Positions 1,289 to 37,781 of a stretch of 64,000 nucleotides of DNA are shown here, one piece after another. This DNA comes from Pseudoalteromonas sp. G4 (GTDB lineage Bacteria; Pseudomonadota; Gammaproteobacteria; Enterobacterales; Alteromonadaceae), in NCBI RefSeq assembly GCF_028875915.1, contig NZ_JAPEHW010000012.1, positions 1-64,000 on the forward strand, read 5' to 3'. Within the stretch, counting starts at the first letter, position 1, and each line of letters begins with the position of its first letter. The notes beneath the pieces are model-generated. The model did not search any database and was not told the DNA's origin. It saw only the letters and a program-made list of their open reading frames with translations. Position numbers and translations under genes: made by a program.

Positions 1289-3685
1289 TTGCTACCTATT
1301 CAAAGTGTTTATCACACACTAGTTACTGAATTATCAAATAACGAGCGAGTTGTATTGCAGGCGCCACCGGGTGCCGGTAAATCAACTTGGTTGCCGTTAC
1401 AGCTAATCAAAGATAACCACTTTAAACGTATTATTATGCTTGAGCCACGTAGGCTCGCTGCGCGAAATATCGCAAGCTTTCTGGCTGAATGCTTAGATGA
1501 ACCATTAGGGCAAACCATAGGTTTACGCATTCGCGGTGAAAGTATTGTTAGCAAACAAACGCGCTTAGAAATTGTCACCGAAGGCATGCTCACTCGCATG
1601 TTACAAGACGATCCTGAGTTAAACGGGGTCGATTTAGTTATTTTCGATGAGTTTCACGAACGCTCAATTCAGGCTGAAACAGCATTGGCACTGGCATTTG
1701 AGGTGCAACTGGCGTATCGCGATGATTTAAAATTGCTGATCATGTCTGCAACCTTAGATGGTGAGCGGCTATCAGCAGAGTTTGATGCGCCTTTAGTACA
1801 AAGTGAAGGTCGTCAGTTTCCAATTTCTGAAGTTTATACACCGCTTACTAATGAAGCTGATTGGCTGTCACAAATTGCGCCGCTTACACTTAAAGCGATG
1901 GCTGAGCAAACGGGCAGTGCTTTAGTTTTTTTACCGGGTGTGAAAGAAATTAAAGCCGTTGAAAGCGCCTTACTTGATGCTAAAAATGCAGGGCTTATTG
2001 AGCAAAATACCGCTATTTATGCGCTTTTTGGCAAGCAAGATAAAAAAACGCAGCAAGCAGCGCTAAAACCGTGTGAAGGTGATAAACGCAAAATCGTGCT
2101 GACCACGAATGTTGCTGAAACCAGTTTGACCATTGATGGCATTCGAATTGTGGTGGATTCTGGTAAAGAGAAAATTACCCAATACAATGTAAAAAATGGC
2201 ATCAGCCAATTGCTTACTGTAAATATTGCTAAGTCTTCTGCAGTTCAACGCGCGGGTCGTGCCGGTCGAATCGAAGCGGGTGTTGTTTATCGCCTTGGTA
2301 GTAAAGAGCTGTTTGAACGCCGTGCTAATCACACAACCCCAGAAATATTACGAAGCGATATTAGCCAACTTGTTTTAGAGTGCGCTAATTGGGGGACGCA
2401 CATCCATGATTTAGTGCTGCTTGATAAACCAAGCGCAAAACAAATAGCTGCAGCAACTGAGTTATTGCTGATGCTTGAGGCGATAGACGGTGATGGCAAA
2501 ATCACTTCGCTTGGCAGAAAAATTTTAAGTTATGGTACTGAACTTCGCTTTGCCCATATGTTGATTAAAGCCGAGCAGCTCGATGCGGATTACCCTGGTA
2601 TTTATCATTTAGCTGTTTACTTGGTCGCACTTTTTACCAGTCAAACGAATCGCAGCAGTGATATTGCAACAGGGCTTAACCTGCAACTTAATACGCCGCA
2701 TGGGAGTTTTGAAAAAGAACTGACACTTTGGCTTAAACGCTTAAAGTTAAAACTTGCATTTCCTGATAGAATTGCACAAAAGCGCGGAAATGGCCTGCGT
2801 TTAGCTAACGGTGCAGGTGCCACGTTACATTCCGATTTTCCGCTGCAAGACCCTTTGCTTTGTATAGGCGATATGGGTGGTGCCACTGGGCAGCATGTAT
2901 TTAATGCCTGTAAATGTGATTTAACACTGATTGAAAGTGCACTACCTTATTTGTTTTCGAATAAAAATATTGCACAGTTTGATGAAAATGCTGGGCGCTT
3001 TATTGCTGAAACCCATTACTGTTTGGGGCAACTCGTACTTTCGCGAAAACCAAGCAGTAAAACCGTAAGTGCTGATGAAAAAGCCGCTGCGTGGTGCGCC
3101 ATTATCGCTAAAAAAGGCTGGCAATTAATTACCTTAGATGAAGATGCTGAGCAATATATAGTGAGGCTAACGCTTGCGCATAAATATTTGCCAAATGAAT
3201 TTCCAGCCATCAATAAACAGTTTTTATTTGAGAGCTTGGCAAGCTGGTTGGCACCTTATCTACGCGACGTAAATAGCCTTACGGCACTTAAAAAAGTAGC
3301 GATTTTACCTGCGCTTGAAAACCTAATTGATTGGCAACAGCAAACGCGTTTAGATGAGCTGTTGCCCGAACGTCTTGTTGTACCAACGGGATCAAAACTA
3401 AAAATTCACTATCAAGTTGATGGACCAGCAAAGCTCGCAGTGAAAATGCAGGAGATGTATGGTGTTGCCACTACGCCAACCCTTGCTGGTGGTCATTTAG
3501 CGCTTGCTATCGAGTTACTGTCACCCGCCATGAGGCCACTGCAAATTACTCAGGACTTAGCAGGTTTTTGGGCATCGAGCTATCGTGAAGTGCAAAAAGA
3601 AATGAAAGGACGCTACCCTAAACATTTTTGGCCGGATGATCCCGCTAATGCTAAGGCAACTAACAAAGTAAAAAGCAGAATGTAA
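1289..3685 (+). CDS. hrpB: ATP-dependent helicase HrpB
   Basis: A 798-residue DExH helicase of the HrpB family. Visible motifs: Walker A APPGAGKST (residues 25-33), DEFH (120-123), SAT (153-155), QRAGRAGR (motif VI), and the HrpB C-terminal signature REVQKEMKGRYPKHFWPDDP at the end. The start is TTG with no clear Shine-Dalgarno sequence; it gives the family N-terminus LPIQSV. It lies 30 nt after arsJ and may be read through from it. HrpB is a non-essential RNA-helicase-like protein of uncertain role in gammaproteobacteria. Around residues 484-490 (about 2738-2755) the run LKRLKLKLAFPDRIA joins two blocks that in E. coli are separated by about 14 more residues, suggesting an in-frame deletion of roughly 42 nt. 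Family call is certain; integrity is less so. Confidence 0.95.
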   Translation: MLPIQSVYHTLVTELSNNERVVLQAPPGAGKSTWLPLQLIKDNHFKRIIMLEPRRLAARNIASFLAECLDEPLGQTIGLRIRGESIVSKQTRLEIVTEGMLTRMLQDDPELNGVDLVIFDEFHERSIQAETALALAFEVQLAYRDDLKLLIMSATLDGERLSAEFDAPLVQSEGRQFPISEVYTPLTNEADWLSQIAPLTLKAMAEQTGSALVFLPGVKEIKAVESALLDAKNAGLIEQNTAIYALFGKQDKKTQQAALKPCEGDKRKIVLTTNVAETSLTIDGIRIVVDSGKEKITQYNVKNGISQLLTVNIAKSSAVQRAGRAGRIEAGVVYRLGSKELFERRANHTTPEILRSDISQLVLECANWGTHIHDLVLLDKPSAKQIAAATELLLMLEAIDGDGKITSLGRKILSYGTELRFAHMLIKAEQLDADYPGIYHLAVYLVALFTSQTNRSSDIATGLNLQLNTPHGSFEKELTLWLKRLKLKLAFPDRIAQKRGNGLRLANGAGATLHSDFPLQDPLLCIGDMGGATGQHVFNACKCDLTLIESALPYLFSNKNIAQFDENAGRFIAETHYCLGQLVLSRKPSSKTVSADEKAAAWCAIIAKKGWQLITLDEDAEQYIVRLTLAHKYLPNEFPAINKQFLFESLASWLAPYLRDVNSLTALKKVAILPALENLIDWQQQTRLDELLPERLVVPTGSKLKIHYQVDGPAKLAVKMQEMYGVATTPTLAGGHLALAIELLSPAMRPLQITQDLAGFWASSYREVQKEMKGRYPKHFWPDDPANAKATNKVKSRM

Positions 3686-6227: not shown

Positions 6228-8510
6228 ATGACAGATAAAAAGAAACCAGCTAAAGCCACAACAGCAAAAACGGCCAGCAAAAAGAAACCTCGCGCGAAAA
6301 AACAAGCTCCAACTCGTAATCAACCGAGTTGGATTAAACGTATTGCCGTTTTTTCATTTAAGCTTGGTATTGGCCTATGTTTGGCACTTGCCCTTTATTT
6401 GATTTACTTAGATAGCAAAATAAGCCACAAATTCGAAGGCAACAAATGGCAGTTGCCAGCGCAAATTTACGCGCGTGCGATGACCTTCTACCCGGGCCAG
6501 TATTTATCAAAAGATGAGGTGATTTGGGAATTGCAGCGTCTAAATTACTCTGAAGTTAATCGTATTAATAATACTGGGCAATATGTTGTTAAAGGCAACT
6601 CTATCCGCATTTATCGTCGCGCTTTTGAGTTTTATGATGGTTCTGAGCAGCAAATGGGATTTGACTTAATCTTCGGCCCTAAAAAGCTTGCGGCGATTAA
6701 AGGTGAGCAGGGGGAAAGCTTGGCTATGGCGCGATTAGAGCCAGTGCAACTGGCGCGCTTAGCAAATGAAACCAAACAAGATCGTGAGTTTGTGCCGCTC
6801 AGTCATATTCCTAAAGTCGTACAAGAAACCTTACTTTTGGTTGAAGATCGTAATTTTTACGAGCACCATGGTGTTTCAGTATGGTCAATTGTCCGTGCCC
6901 TTGTGGCTAATATCCGTGCTGGTCGCACAGTACAAGGCGGCAGCACGCTGACGCAACAATTAGCTAAGAACTTTTATTTAAGCCGTGACCGCACCCTAAC
7001 GCGTAAAATTAACGAAGCGTTAATTGCCTTAATTTTAGATTTTAGATACAGCAAAGATGAGATTTTAGAAGCCTATTTAAATGAGGTATACCTTGGTCAG
7101 TCGCGCTCGCAAGGGGTGCACGGTTTTGGTCTTGCTAGTGAGTTTTATTTTGGTAAACCGCTTAATGAAATTGAATACGACCAAGTTGCTTTATTAGTTG
7201 CGATGGTTAAAGGGCCGAGTTACTACAATCCGCGTCGCTTTAAAGAACGTACGATGGAAAGGCGTGATTTGGTGCTGCGTTTAATGGTTGAAAACGGTTT
7301 AATCTCAACGAAAAGCTACAAACTGGCACTTGCGCGCGACATTAAAATTGAGCCGCTATCACGGTTTGATATAAACCAGCATCCAGGCTATATGGATTTA
7401 GTGCGCCGCGAACTAAAAGATATTCTTGATTCGAAAGACACTATTGATGCTGGGGTACGGGTATTTACGTATTTTGATTTACAAAAACAAGCTGCGATGG
7501 AAAAGTCGTTTGAAACAGGGTTGCCTTATTTAGAACGTTTAAAATCGACTTCTAAGCTTGAGGCAGCAATGTTGTCGGTTAATGTGAAATATGGCGGTGT
7601 GTCTGCCTTGGTAGGCGCTCGCGATAGCGACTTTAATGGTTTTAACCGAGCGCTTGATACCAAGCGTAATATTGGCTCATTAGTTAAGCCAGCCATCTAT
7701 ATGACTGCATTTGAGTCAGGCAAATATACCCTCGGCAGCTTAGTTGATGACGAGCCTATGGAGATTAGTGATGAAGCCGGTCACACTTGGTCACCGTCTA
7801 ATTTTGACCAAAGATTCCGCGGTAAAATGCCACTTTATCAGGCGTTTATTGGTTTAGATCTTGGCTTACCAGCTGTCACTGAGTCGATTAAACGCTTAGG
7901 GGTTGAGCAGTCTATTAATCAATACCCGTCGTTATTACTAGGCGCGCAAGAGCTTTCGCCTATTGATGTTGCACAGATGTATTCAACCATTGCATTTGAT
8001 GGTGACTACCGCAATATCACCTCTGTTGCAGCAATTACGAATGCGGTTGGTGAGTTGATTTACCAGCATCAAAGCACACCGATAAGGCGTTTTTCACCAG
8101 CCACTAGCTATATGACCAAATACGCAATGCAAAAGGTAACACGTGAAGGCACCGCGAAACGCTTAAAATTACATTTCCCAACCATTCAGTTAGCGGGTAA
8201 AACGGGCTCAACCAATAACTTGCGTGATAGCTGGTTTGCCGGTTTTGACCAAAATACGGTAACCGTTACTTGGGTTGGTCGTGATGATAATAAACCGACG
8301 AAGTTAACTGGTAGCGTTGGTGCTTTAGAGCTTTATATTCGCTATTTGCGACAGCTCAATCCAGAATCAATCGCAACACCTAGGCCACCGTCAATTAAAT
8401 GGGCGTTTGTAAATACAGAAACAGGCAAGCAAGCACCACCAGGCTGTGGCACTGTGCTTAAATTGCCGATACCAGCAGAGTTATTTAATTCACGGCCGCG
8501 CTGTAATTAA
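6228..8510 (+). CDS. mrcB: Bifunctional penicillin-binding protein 1B
   Basis: A 760-residue class A PBP that polymerises and cross-links peptidoglycan in the periplasm. It has a Lys-rich cytoplasmic tail (residues 1-37), one membrane anchor (about 40-62), a UB2H-like region, then a GT51 glycosyltransferase domain with EDRNFYEHHG (about 206), GGSTLTQQLAKNF and DEILEAYLNEVYLG. The transpeptidase domain has SLVK (SxxK, about 484) and KTGST (about 657). The SxN motif is missing: LYQAFI runs straight into GLDLGLPAVTES, where E. coli PBP1B has about ten extra residues including Ser-x-Asn. This is consistent with an in-frame loss of about 30 nt near 7845-7853. Glycosyltransferase function looks intact; transpeptidase function is doubtful if the sequence is correct. 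Confidence 0.95.
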   Translation: MTDKKKPAKATTAKTASKKKPRAKKQAPTRNQPSWIKRIAVFSFKLGIGLCLALALYLIYLDSKISHKFEGNKWQLPAQIYARAMTFYPGQYLSKDEVIWELQRLNYSEVNRINNTGQYVVKGNSIRIYRRAFEFYDGSEQQMGFDLIFGPKKLAAIKGEQGESLAMARLEPVQLARLANETKQDREFVPLSHIPKVVQETLLLVEDRNFYEHHGVSVWSIVRALVANIRAGRTVQGGSTLTQQLAKNFYLSRDRTLTRKINEALIALILDFRYSKDEILEAYLNEVYLGQSRSQGVHGFGLASEFYFGKPLNEIEYDQVALLVAMVKGPSYYNPRRFKERTMERRDLVLRLMVENGLISTKSYKLALARDIKIEPLSRFDINQHPGYMDLVRRELKDILDSKDTIDAGVRVFTYFDLQKQAAMEKSFETGLPYLERLKSTSKLEAAMLSVNVKYGGVSALVGARDSDFNGFNRALDTKRNIGSLVKPAIYMTAFESGKYTLGSLVDDEPMEISDEAGHTWSPSNFDQRFRGKMPLYQAFIGLDLGLPAVTESIKRLGVEQSINQYPSLLLGAQELSPIDVAQMYSTIAFDGDYRNITSVAAITNAVGELIYQHQSTPIRRFSPATSYMTKYAMQKVTREGTAKRLKLHFPTIQLAGKTGSTNNLRDSWFAGFDQNTVTVTWVGRDDNKPTKLTGSVGALELYIRYLRQLNPESIATPRPPSIKWAFVNTETGKQAPPGCGTVLKLPIPAELFNSRPRCN

Positions 8511-29894: not shown

Positions 29895-31094
29895 ATGGGC
29901 TTAAAGAAGTTTCTTGAAGATATCGAGCCGCATTTTGAACCAGGTGGTAAACACGAAAAATGGTATGCGCTATATGAAGCTGCAGCTACTATTTTCTACA
30001 CACCGGGTCATGTAACAAAAGCTGGCTCTCACGTACGTGATAATATCGACCTTAAACGTATTATGATCTTAGTATGGATGGCAACATTCCCAGCTATGTT
30101 CTTTGGTATGTTTAACATTGGTCATCAAGCGTCAATCGCGCTTGCTAATGGTTTTGCTTTAGGTGATTCATGGCAGGTTGCGTTATTCCAACTTTTTGGT
30201 GGTGATTTAACCGCTACTTCTGGTTGGGGCGCGAAAATGTTCTATGGTGCCTGTTTCTTCCTACCAATCTACGCAACTGTGTTTGCAGTAGGTGGTTTCT
30301 GGGAAGTACTATTTGCATCAGTACGTAAACACGAAGTTAACGAAGGCTTCTTCGTAACATCAGTACTATTCGCTCTTATCTTGCCTGCGACAATTCCGCT
30401 TTGGCAGGTAGCACTAGGTATTACCTTTGGTGTAGTAATGGCGAAAGAAGTATTTGGTGGTACAGGCCGTAACTTCTTAAACCCGGCATTAGCGGGTCGT
30501 GCGTTCTTATTCTTTGCATATCCAGCACAAATCTCAGGTGATACTGTGTGGACTGCGGTAGATGGTTTCTCAGGTGCAACTTACCTAGGTCAAGCTGTTG
30601 TTGGTAGCATCGACTACAACAACATGGAACTATGGTTAAATGCATTCTACGGCTTTATTCAAGGTTCTGTGGGTGAGACATCAACGCTAGCGCTTATGAT
30701 TGGTGGTTTAGCACTAATCTATTTCCGTATCGCTTCATGGCGCATCGTACTAGGTGTGTTTGCTGGTATGGTTGCTACGTCATTCCTACTAAATGGTATC
30801 GGTTCTGAAACGAATAACATGTTTGCAATGCCTTGGCATTGGCACCTTGTACTAGGTGGTTTCGCATTTGGTATGTTCTTCATGGCGACCGACCCAGTTT
30901 CTGCATCTTTCACAGATAAAGGTAAGTGGGCATACGGTATTCTTATTGGTGTAATGGTTGTTTTAATCCGTGTAGTAAACCCTGCATACCCAGAAGGTAT
31001 GATGCTAGCGATTCTATTTGCTAACTTGTTTGCGCCGTTATTCGACCACTTTGTAGTTCAGTCGAACATCAAGAGGAGATTGGCTCGTGGCTAG
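29895..31094 (+). CDS. nqrB: Na+-translocating NADH:quinone reductase subunit B
   Basis: A 399-residue membrane subunit with about ten helices. It carries covalent FMN on the Thr of FSGATYLGQ, which matches the SGAT flavinylation motif, and contributes to the Na+ pathway. Start ATG at 29895 with AAGGAAGG upstream, giving [23 protein letters not shown]. It is somewhat shorter than V. cholerae NqrB (415) because of a shorter loop after the first helix; this looks like normal family variation. The last residues overlap nqrC by 8 nt. Confidence 0.96.
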
Positions 31095-31863
31095 TAATAA
31101 CGAATCTATCGGTAAAACACTTGGTGTTGTAGTTGGCCTATGTTTAGTATGTGCGGTTGTTGTATCTATGGCAGCTGTTCAACTTCGTCCTCTACAGCAA
31201 GCAAACAAAACACAAGACGTTCAGCGTAATATTCTAGCTGCAGCTGGTTTTACTGACGTTAAAAATGTGTCGGAAACATTCAATGCCAACATTGAAGCGC
31301 GTTTAGTTAATCTTGAATCAGGTGAATTTGTTACAGACAAGTCGCTATCTGGATTAGATGTTGATAACGAAATCGATAAGTTTGATTTTGAAATGACTAA
31401 GTTCGATGCTAAACGTAGCTTTAAACTTGAAAAAGCAAACGATTTAGCTGGTGTTCAGCGTATGACGACTGAATCGCCAGTTTATTTTGCAAAAAATGAC
31501 AGCGGTAAAGTTGAAACTATTATTCTACCAGTTCAAGGTTACGGCCTTTGGGGTATTATGTATGGTTTCCTAGCGTTAGATACTGATACTAAAACAGTTA
31601 AAGCGATTAACTTCTACAAGCACAATGAAACTCCAGGTCTTGGTGGTGAAATCCAAAACCCGAAGTGGACAGCGACTTGGGAAGACAAGCAATTACCAGT
31701 TGATATTGTAAAAGGTACAGCAGGTAACAATGTGCATAAAGTGGATGGTTTATCTGGTGCAACGCTTACTTCGGTTGGTGTTGATAACACATTCAAGTTC
31801 TGGACAAGCGATAAAGCGTTTGGTCCATTCCTTGCGAAAGTACGTGAAGGAGCATTGAACTAA
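31087..31863 (+). CDS. nqrC: Na+-translocating NADH:quinone reductase subunit C
   Basis: A 258-residue subunit with one N-terminal membrane helix (about 11-31) and a periplasmic domain holding the second covalent FMN on the Thr of [13 protein letters not shown] start overlapping nqrB by 8 nt. [12 protein letters not shown] is the usual family block. The FMN is attached by ApbE, encoded downstream. Confidence 0.96.
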
Positions 31864-35900: not shown

Positions 35901-37781
35901 TCAATATCTTCTTGCAATTCTACTTCCAGTAACAGGTCTTAAGAATTGGCTTGGGTCATTAAAACTGAAGACTTTGCTAACTTTAGTTTCAACCTTTGTA
36001 TCACCTTGTAATGCAGGTTCAAAACGCCATTTTTGTAACGCTCTAGAAATTGTACGCTTAAAGCTTCTAGGCACTCCAGATTGATATTCAATGTCTGTAA
36101 TTTTACCATTTACATCAACAGTGAATGTAACAGAGATATCTTCTTGGCCTTGTAAGTTAGAAAACACTCTCGGGTACTCTGGCATTACTGACTCAAGTAG
36201 TTTTGCCTCGACAAATTTTGTTTTCTCAATAGGAGTTGAAACAGCCTTAGTTAACTCTTCTGTTTCTGTTATTTCAGATGGTGTTATTGCTTGCTCTTCA
36301 ATAATTACAGGCTGTGATTGCTCAAAGGCACGTGTAGTCACATTAGTCATCTCTAAGTTAACTGACGTTTGTGTTTCTTCGTTTGAATCTTGAGTTTCAA
36401 TAGCAAGCTCTTGGTACTCTACAAATTCAACTTCTGTGTTAACAGCATCCTTAGTGGCAAGTGAAACGATTTCTGGTGTTTCGATAGGTTCTTCTTGTTC
36501 GTAAACAGTTTGTTTATTTACGATGTCAGCTTGTGCAATTGGGTCGGCAGATTCAGGTTCTGGTAGTTCGTTTGAAGCAGATTGAGTTACCTGCGAAGAA
36601 ACAGTTTCTTTCAATTCGGTTTTATTATTTTTGCTATCTAAAAAGGTATTGCTTGGAACTTGTGCACTTATAATTAACGGCTTTGATGCTTCGACCTTTT
36701 TAGTTTCAACAGGTTTTGCATCGAGTACCATTACATGTTGATTCTCAAGCGGGGTTGTCTTGATAGGCTCAGCTTGAGTCATTGCAATTACTTTTGAAGC
36801 AGTGAAAATGCTTGGGATCACAAGTACAGCAGCTAAAGCTGCAAGCCACTGATTACCATAACGCGGTGCACAACTATGTTGACCAACTGCGCGGTGAATA
36901 CGTGACTTCAGATCACCGCCAGTAGCCGCCATGGCAAGCTCTGGAATGTTTTGTCTCAGCACTTCGGCTTCGGTAAGCGCGCGTGCATAGTGTAAATGAT
37001 TACCACAATGATGTAGCGCAATATCATCACAACAATATTCACGTTCAATACGAATTTGTTTTGAGATCCACTTTACTGCGGGGTGGAAAAATAATACTAA
37101 TTCGACAAACGTTTGAATCAAATTTACCAAGTAGTCGTAGCGCTTAATATGAGCAAGCTCATGTGCCATTAACATTTCTAGTTGGGCAATAGTAAGTCCA
37201 CTCGCTAAATTCGCGGGTAAAAGTACGACAGGTTTAATCCAACCAATAGCCATAGGAACTTGTGCTGTTAATGAAATAACTAAGCGCGAGCGTTTAGCAA
37301 CAGATAGTTGCAGCTTAAGTTGATTAAAGATCTGTTCCAGTTTATCTGAAGGCTGCACGATGTTAGTTGTAGTCAATTTATGAACTTGCAACATTTGCCA
37401 GCCAAGTCGCACACTTAGCAAGGCAACACCACACATCCAAGCGACAGCAATCAGCGGTGTGAAATCGGATAGGTACAATTGACCTATGACATCAGCTTGA
37501 GTTGCAACGGAAATCACGCTTGAACTTGCAAGGGGGGGAGTTGCGAAACTTGTCTGCTCAGGTTGTGATATAAGCAAGAAGGTAATTGTAGGGGCAATAA
37601 CGCACAGTGTTAAACTTAATAACGAAACTAAATAACGAAGTTCGCTGTGTTTATTGCTTGTGAGTTTTTTAACACACAAAAGAATGCCAGCAATTGCTAA
37701 GCCTTGCCATAAAAAGTGTAAAAGAGTTAGAGAAATAGAATGCAGAAGGTCACTTTCTAATAATGAGGGCAATATATCCAT
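35901..37781 (-). CDS. M56 (BlaR1-like) metallopeptidase with C-terminal TonB domain
   Basis: 626 residues. Helices at about 15-36, 50-71 and 109-131, then a zinc metalloprotease with HELAH (207-211) and the second metal motif in REYCCDDIAL, then a helix near 310-332. A periplasmic linker of about 200 residues rich in Glu/Gln/Thr/Pro follows. The last 90 residues (AKLLESVMPEYPRVFSNLQGQ, then TVDVNGKITDIEY, RALQKWRFEP) are a TonB C-terminal domain. In BlaR1 the C-terminal part is a beta-lactam sensor and the protease cleaves BlaI; here the sensor is replaced by TonB_C, so the signal is unknown. It starts 9 nt after blaI: same operon. Confidence 0.9.
   Translation of the reverse strand: MDILPSLLESDLLHSISLTLLHFLWQGLAIAGILLCVKKLTSNKHSELRYLVSLLSLTLCVIAPTITFLLISQPEQTSFATPPLASSSVISVATQADVIGQLYLSDFTPLIAVAWMCGVALLSVRLGWQMLQVHKLTTTNIVQPSDKLEQIFNQLKLQLSVAKRSRLVISLTAQVPMAIGWIKPVVLLPANLASGLTIAQLEMLMAHELAHIKRYDYLVNLIQTFVELVLFFHPAVKWISKQIRIEREYCCDDIALHHCGNHLHYARALTEAEVLRQNIPELAMAATGGDLKSRIHRAVGQHSCAPRYGNQWLAALAAVLVIPSIFTASKVIAMTQAEPIKTTPLENQHVMVLDAKPVETKKVEASKPLIISAQVPSNTFLDSKNNKTELKETVSSQVTQSASNELPEPESADPIAQADIVNKQTVYEQEEPIETPEIVSLATKDAVNTEVEFVEYQELAIETQDSNEETQTSVNLEMTNVTTRAFEQSQPVIIEEQAITPSEITETEELTKAVSTPIEKTKFVEAKLLESVMPEYPRVFSNLQGQEDISVTFTVDVNGKITDIEYQSGVPRSFKRTISRALQKWRFEPALQGDTKVETKVSKVFSFNDPSQFLRPVTGSRIARRY

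Follow-up and report, generated by a model that had tools for sequence, protein, structure and literature searches.

Absence of the SxN segment from the assembled PBP1B gene of Pseudoalteromonas sp. G4

In the 64,000-nucleotide stretch of the Pseudoalteromonas sp. G4 genome analyzed here (the window), mrcB encodes a PBP1B from which the SxN motif of the transpeptidase (TP) active site appeared, on a reading of the letters alone, to be missing, and it was suggested that this might be a natural glycosyltransferase-only PBP1B. The locus therefore raises the question of whether the motif is truly absent and, if so, whether its absence reflects a stable enzyme that only polymerizes glycan, a recent lesion in one strain, or a fault in the draft sequence.

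A PBP1B gene with ten codons missing

The mrcB gene (6228 to 8510, forward strand) encodes a protein of 760 amino acids, as judged from its open reading frame and from Pfam and TIGR02071 matches. An N-terminal helix, which serves as the membrane anchor, is followed by the UB2H domain (PF14814, residues 88 to 170), the glycosyltransferase (GT) domain (Transgly, PF00912, residues 181 to 353; 202.1 bits), and the TP domain (PF00905, residues 451 to 685); the position of UB2H ahead of the GT domain is the architecture of a PBP1B. The PBP_1b equivalog model TIGR02071 gave 832.7 bits against a cut-off of 717.75, and the solved structures closest to the protein are those of E. coli PBP1B. The protein does not class as a monofunctional glycosyltransferase: the MtgA model, TIGR02070, scored 129.4 bits, below its cut-off of 182.65, and PF00905 still matches at residues 451 to 685, whereas MtgA is a GT51 protein with no TP domain.

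The GT domain (6768 to 7286, forward strand) is intact, as the sequence-only reading had stated. The motif columns of the genus alignment contain EDRNFYEHHG, GGSTLTQQ, RKINEALIA, and YLNEVYLG, so that the Pfam match and the motifs together give the conserved GT51 domain of a class A PBP, and the predicted structure of the domain is like that of an intact control. Two of the three motifs of a class A PBP active site are likewise present, in agreement with the same reading, in the TP domain (7578 to 8282, forward strand; delimited by PF00905 and examined through motif columns and model confidence): SxxK occurs as SLVK (S484 to K487) and KTG as KTGS (K658 to G660), the latter being the same in three sister species. 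The third motif, SxN, is absent because the segment that would carry it is missing. From these sequence features the protein is a PBP1B by descent, and very probably not an active bifunctional enzyme. At residue 661, the serine of KTGS is common to the window and the three sister species, and 102 of the 107 genus sequences have threonine after KTG.

The loss is visible in the DNA. When the gene was aligned with those of its nearest relatives, G044, G099, and G063, whose PBP1B proteins share 92 to 93% amino acid identity with that of the window, the sole gap in the window row was one of 30 nt. It is preceded by 1621 nt of the gene, which places the junction between 7848 and 7849 in the assembled sequence, and it removes ten codons, including those of SxN, in frame. 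Across the junction the open reading frame reads ...GKMPLYQAFIGLDLGLPAVTES..., with codons F540-I541-G542 (7845 to 7853, forward strand) spanning the deletion in both the DNA and the protein alignments. The gap edges fall inside codons and the frame is preserved; the codon that spans the junction encodes Ile, where the relatives have Val. The residues lost are SKSINMPAVA by comparison with G099 and G063, or SKSVNLPAVA by comparison with G044, and include the Ser and Asn of SxN. A phmmer comparison with E. coli PBP1B (3vma) left ten residues unmatched at the same place. A mistake in the reading frame or annotation was rejected, since one open frame runs through the junction and the gap is present in the DNA. 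The observation of an SxN-less PBP1B in the window sequence is thus confirmed, and what had been described as an in-frame loss of about ten residues is a loss of exactly ten.

Distribution of the lesion and a second deletion nearby

PBP1B sequences were collected from all 108 genus genomes with a match, the window included, and 107 were aligned, the frame-broken sequence of G047 being left out. SxN is present in 106 of these 107 sequences. The window alone is without it, and is also the sole row with an internal gap over at least four columns that are filled in at least 95% of rows. We rejected the idea of a trait shared by the genus or a clade, since the segment is present in the three sister species and in 103 other genus sequences. 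In the wider order, where 288 of 295 genomes gave a match, SxN was found in all 49 PBP1B proteins sampled, a nonrandom set of the 30 best-scoring loci and 19 hand-picked ones that leans toward high scorers; SxxK and KTG were found in all 50 order-level aligned sequences, the window included. The presence of the segment in relatives had been named beforehand as a possible refutation; it holds for other species, but it does not settle what the window strain has. Viral contigs scanned for exact copies of the junction gave 0 matches, and a scan of genome contigs returned 32 loci named for relatives, among which no second strain of the same species was recognized. A search of the open-access literature found no paper on a naturally SxN-less PBP1B, which is no proof of absence. 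The sequence left out of the genus alignment (L111, G047:C149:31223-33540) is a PBP1B of another Pseudoalteromonas that is split by a frameshift near residue 439, just before the TP domain, possibly through a sequencing error.

Outside the gap, the window shows no change at any of the 264 columns that are invariant in the 106 other genus sequences, 80 of which lie in the TP domain; four further invariant columns fall inside the gap. At TP columns that are at least 95% conserved there are six departures in the window, five of them common to all three sister species and one shared with G044. Changes in the TP region that are private to one of three species number 4 in the window, 9 in G044, and 5 in G063. 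Against the three relatives, dN/dS was 0.012 to 0.034 for the TP region and 0.011 to 0.016 for the GT region, ratios that are rough because dS is high, and for UB2H it was undefined for two pairs. Based on the unchanged invariant columns, the lack of private TP departures at conserved columns, and the low dN/dS, the lesion, if real, would be young. Constraint on the TP domain does not appear to have relaxed after the deletion, which suggests that the deletion is either very young or not real.

A second private deletion lies 5.1 kb from that in mrcB. An hrpB-like helicase gene (1289 to 3685, forward strand; identified by Pfam HrpB_C, DEAD, and Helicase_C matches) lacks 45 nt, or 15 codons, in frame in the alignments, with the junction near 2749/2750. 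All 29 of the other genus sequences retrieved contain the missing segment (30 loci were taken from the 107 genomes searched, one being that of the window); it is only moderately conserved, with one invariant column; among the 307 HrpB sites that are invariant in the 29 others, the single change in the window is inside the gap. There are no N bases at the mrcB or hrpB junction, and both deletions are clean. No short direct repeat was visible at the mrcB junction when it was compared by eye with the relatives; slippage between short repeats is therefore thought unlikely as the cause, the relatives' sequence being taken as a proxy for that of the ancestor.

The background of such events was surveyed with nonoverlapping window open reading frames of at least 100 amino acids, each compared with the syntenic region in G099, G063, or G044. 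Of 54 reading frames, 52 could be matched, although past about 40 kb many of them were compared with G099 only. Exactly two of the 52, those of PBP1B and HrpB, had a deletion of at least 10 amino acids relative to every aligning relative; no such deletion was found in the other 50. Elsewhere in the genome, which is a draft of 179 contigs, no indel of at least 4 amino acids relative to every relative compared was found in 58 genes (30 plus 28), two of which had one relative for comparison; one variable gene among them had a 6-amino-acid deletion and a 6-amino-acid insertion relative to G099 only. Because the only two private deletions found lie within 5.1 kb of each other, a local event is indicated, which may be an assembly fault or two real, recent deletions. 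Both are multiples of three, a coincidence expected about 1 time in 9 by chance if frame were irrelevant, which slightly favors real, frame-selected losses. Taken with the private nature of the mrcB lesion and the absence of TP relaxation, the nearby hrpB deletion is compatible with either a very recent lesion or an error confined to this part of the sequence.

Indels were also seen in two other genes of the window. The gene at 31087 to 31863, putatively NqrC, has a 10-amino-acid insertion near residue 82 that is absent in the three sister species, with no tandem repeat listed there, and a fast-evolving gene of 626 amino acids at 35901 to 37781 (57 to 66% identity) has many small indels and better-conserved neighbors.

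Predicted structure and the remaining cell wall enzymes

AlphaFold2 models were built for the window PBP1B and for an intact control from P. sp. P1-9, with the same 44 picked sequences in the alignment. Mean pLDDT was 83.7 for the window protein and 85.5 for the control, and confidence in the GT domain was much alike in the two models; in successive blocks of residues 501 to 550, however, it was 78, 70, 56, 71, and 71 for the window protein versus 94, 82, 87, 95, and 93 for the control. Two control helices at SxN (S543 to N545), spanning residues 536 to 541 and 545 to 555, are missing from the window model, and the removed residues sit in and between these helices in the relative's model. Comparison with E. 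coli PBP1b (5hl9) gave a Z score of 47.8 and an rmsd of 3.3 over 680 aligned residues for the window model and a Z score of 48.6 and an rmsd of 3.2 over 689 residues for the control, nearly the whole length in each case; the alignment consisted of intact family members, and the models may be biased toward the family fold and may understate the damage. The modeling predicts that the fold survives with a damaged TP pocket and an unaltered GT domain. Because the TP pocket is predicted to be locally disrupted, both transpeptidation and penicillin binding have very probably been lost. As a consequence of the window sequence, a predicted loss of TP function with GT function kept is well supported.

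PMC8119973 describes SXN as being involved in protonating the leaving nitrogen. We infer that, without this motif, the leaving-group nitrogen would go unprotonated in a deformed pocket, and that the TP domain would then neither cross-link nor become acylated by penicillin. The GT domain and UB2H would go on polymerizing lipid II, making the protein a membrane-bound glycan polymerase whose strands could be cross-linked by PBP1A, by class B PBPs, or by the single L,D-transpeptidase found.

A search of the genome returned two PF00912 proteins (PBP1A and the window PBP1B), four PF00905 proteins, and one YkuD L,D-transpeptidase; the PF00912 search found no third GT51 protein in the assembled genome. 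PBP1A, on contig C162, has all three motifs (SNIK, SKN, and KTG); apart from it and the window PBP1B, no class A PBP was found. A second, intact copy of PBP1B in the assembled genome was rejected, as only PBP1A matches besides mrcB. Close to the end of its contig, a class B transpeptidase (L278, G000:C148) has STIK and KTG and, by a crude pattern, no SxN; PBP2 may use SxD. In E. coli, according to PMC5089857 and PMC6428754, PBP1B carrying S510A polymerizes glycan without TP activity, works in some settings, and serves together with L,D-transpeptidase. Given these results and the intact motifs of PBP1A, the loss of PBP1B transpeptidation is plausible and probably survivable.

Competing explanations and comparison with known systems

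The explanation that we favor, and to which we assign an even chance, is a recent, strain-level loss of TP function: an ordinary PBP1B gene would have lost 30 nt in frame in the sequenced strain, leaving a loss-of-function allele that is tolerated through PBP1A and is not a maintained new enzyme class. Several points weigh against it. The hrpB deletion, with nothing of the kind in the 58 genes elsewhere, fits a local assembly fault too, and the mrcB junction has no short direct repeat by eye against relatives. The deletion may also destabilize the whole protein, beyond its TP activity, and the allele may be costly, since PMC12826052 describes one E. coli setting in which PBP1B TP activity is needed. 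The strongest competitor, a substantial possibility that we nevertheless hold to be somewhat less than even, is an assembly or consensus error in which the draft dropped 30 nt from mrcB and 45 nt from hrpB and the PBP1B of the living strain is normal. Such an error would account for two private deletions so close together in a draft of 179 contigs and for the lack of any other decay, with none of the 264 PBP1B sites changed and the one altered HrpB site inside the gap; it sits less well with two clean losses that are both multiples of three, with no N at either junction, and with the 50 of 52 matched window reading frames that have no such deletion.

Other readings accept the deletion and differ on what became of the protein. 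One of them is a stable PBP1B whose TP site was discarded in frame and which acts as a UB2H-regulated glycan polymerase feeding PBP1A and the single L,D-transpeptidase. This reading is consistent with the preserved frame, the intact GT motifs, and the presence in the genome of a PBP1A that has its three motifs, together with one YkuD protein. It is improbable, however: a TP site long discarded should have gathered changes, constraint there is not relaxed, and the form occurs in one genome only. An established natural glycosyltransferase-only PBP1B is thus not supported, given a change confined to one draft genome, an unrelaxed TP domain, and a private in-frame deletion in nearby hrpB. Slightly less probable still is a null allele, in which a TP domain ten residues short fails to fold properly, PBP1B is broken down, and PBP1A alone sustains the cell; the local collapse of model confidence in the predicted TP pocket is in keeping with this, but the overall pLDDT (83.7 versus 85.5) and the full-length match to E. 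coli PBP1b structures argue against it, with the reservation that the model may be biased toward the family fold. We regard as highly improbable a TP domain that still works through a neighboring Ser or Asn in place of SxN. The retention of SLVK, KTG, and all 264 relatives-invariant sites outside the gap would suit a working domain; the junction, FIGLDLG, has no Ser or Asn, and the model lacks the helices on which the placement of the motif depends.

Should the deletion be real, as the favored reading of a recent strain-level loss supposes, the strain would carry a natural separation-of-function allele, GT without TP, in a genome whose search returned only two class A PBPs, and would make it possible to ask directly, in an organism other than E. 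coli, whether PBP1B glycan polymerization matters apart from cross-linking. If the form were instead stably maintained, it would be a naturally occurring equivalent of the S510A protein made in the laboratory, and PBP1B would no longer be a β-lactam target. If the draft is at fault, the locus illustrates how short in-frame gaps can mimic the loss of a catalytic motif, and why the genes nearby should be examined for similar errors.

The window protein resembles the PBP1B of E. coli and other Enterobacterales (TIGR02071) in its UB2H-GT-TP order, its score above the curated cut-off, its SxxK and KTG motifs, and its whole-length structural match; unlike them, it is without ten residues that include SxN and very probably is neither a transpeptidase nor a penicillin-binding protein. 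With MtgA, which has no TP or UB2H domain, it would share a net activity of glycan polymerization only, although the window protein is a full-length PBP1B. It is also reminiscent of the TP-dead PBP1B made in the laboratory by the S510A substitution, as described in PMC5089857, PMC6428754, and PMC12826052, in that GT function is predicted to be kept and TP function lost. S510A is one engineered substitution of the nucleophile, whereas the window sequence has a deletion of another motif, seen in a draft genome.
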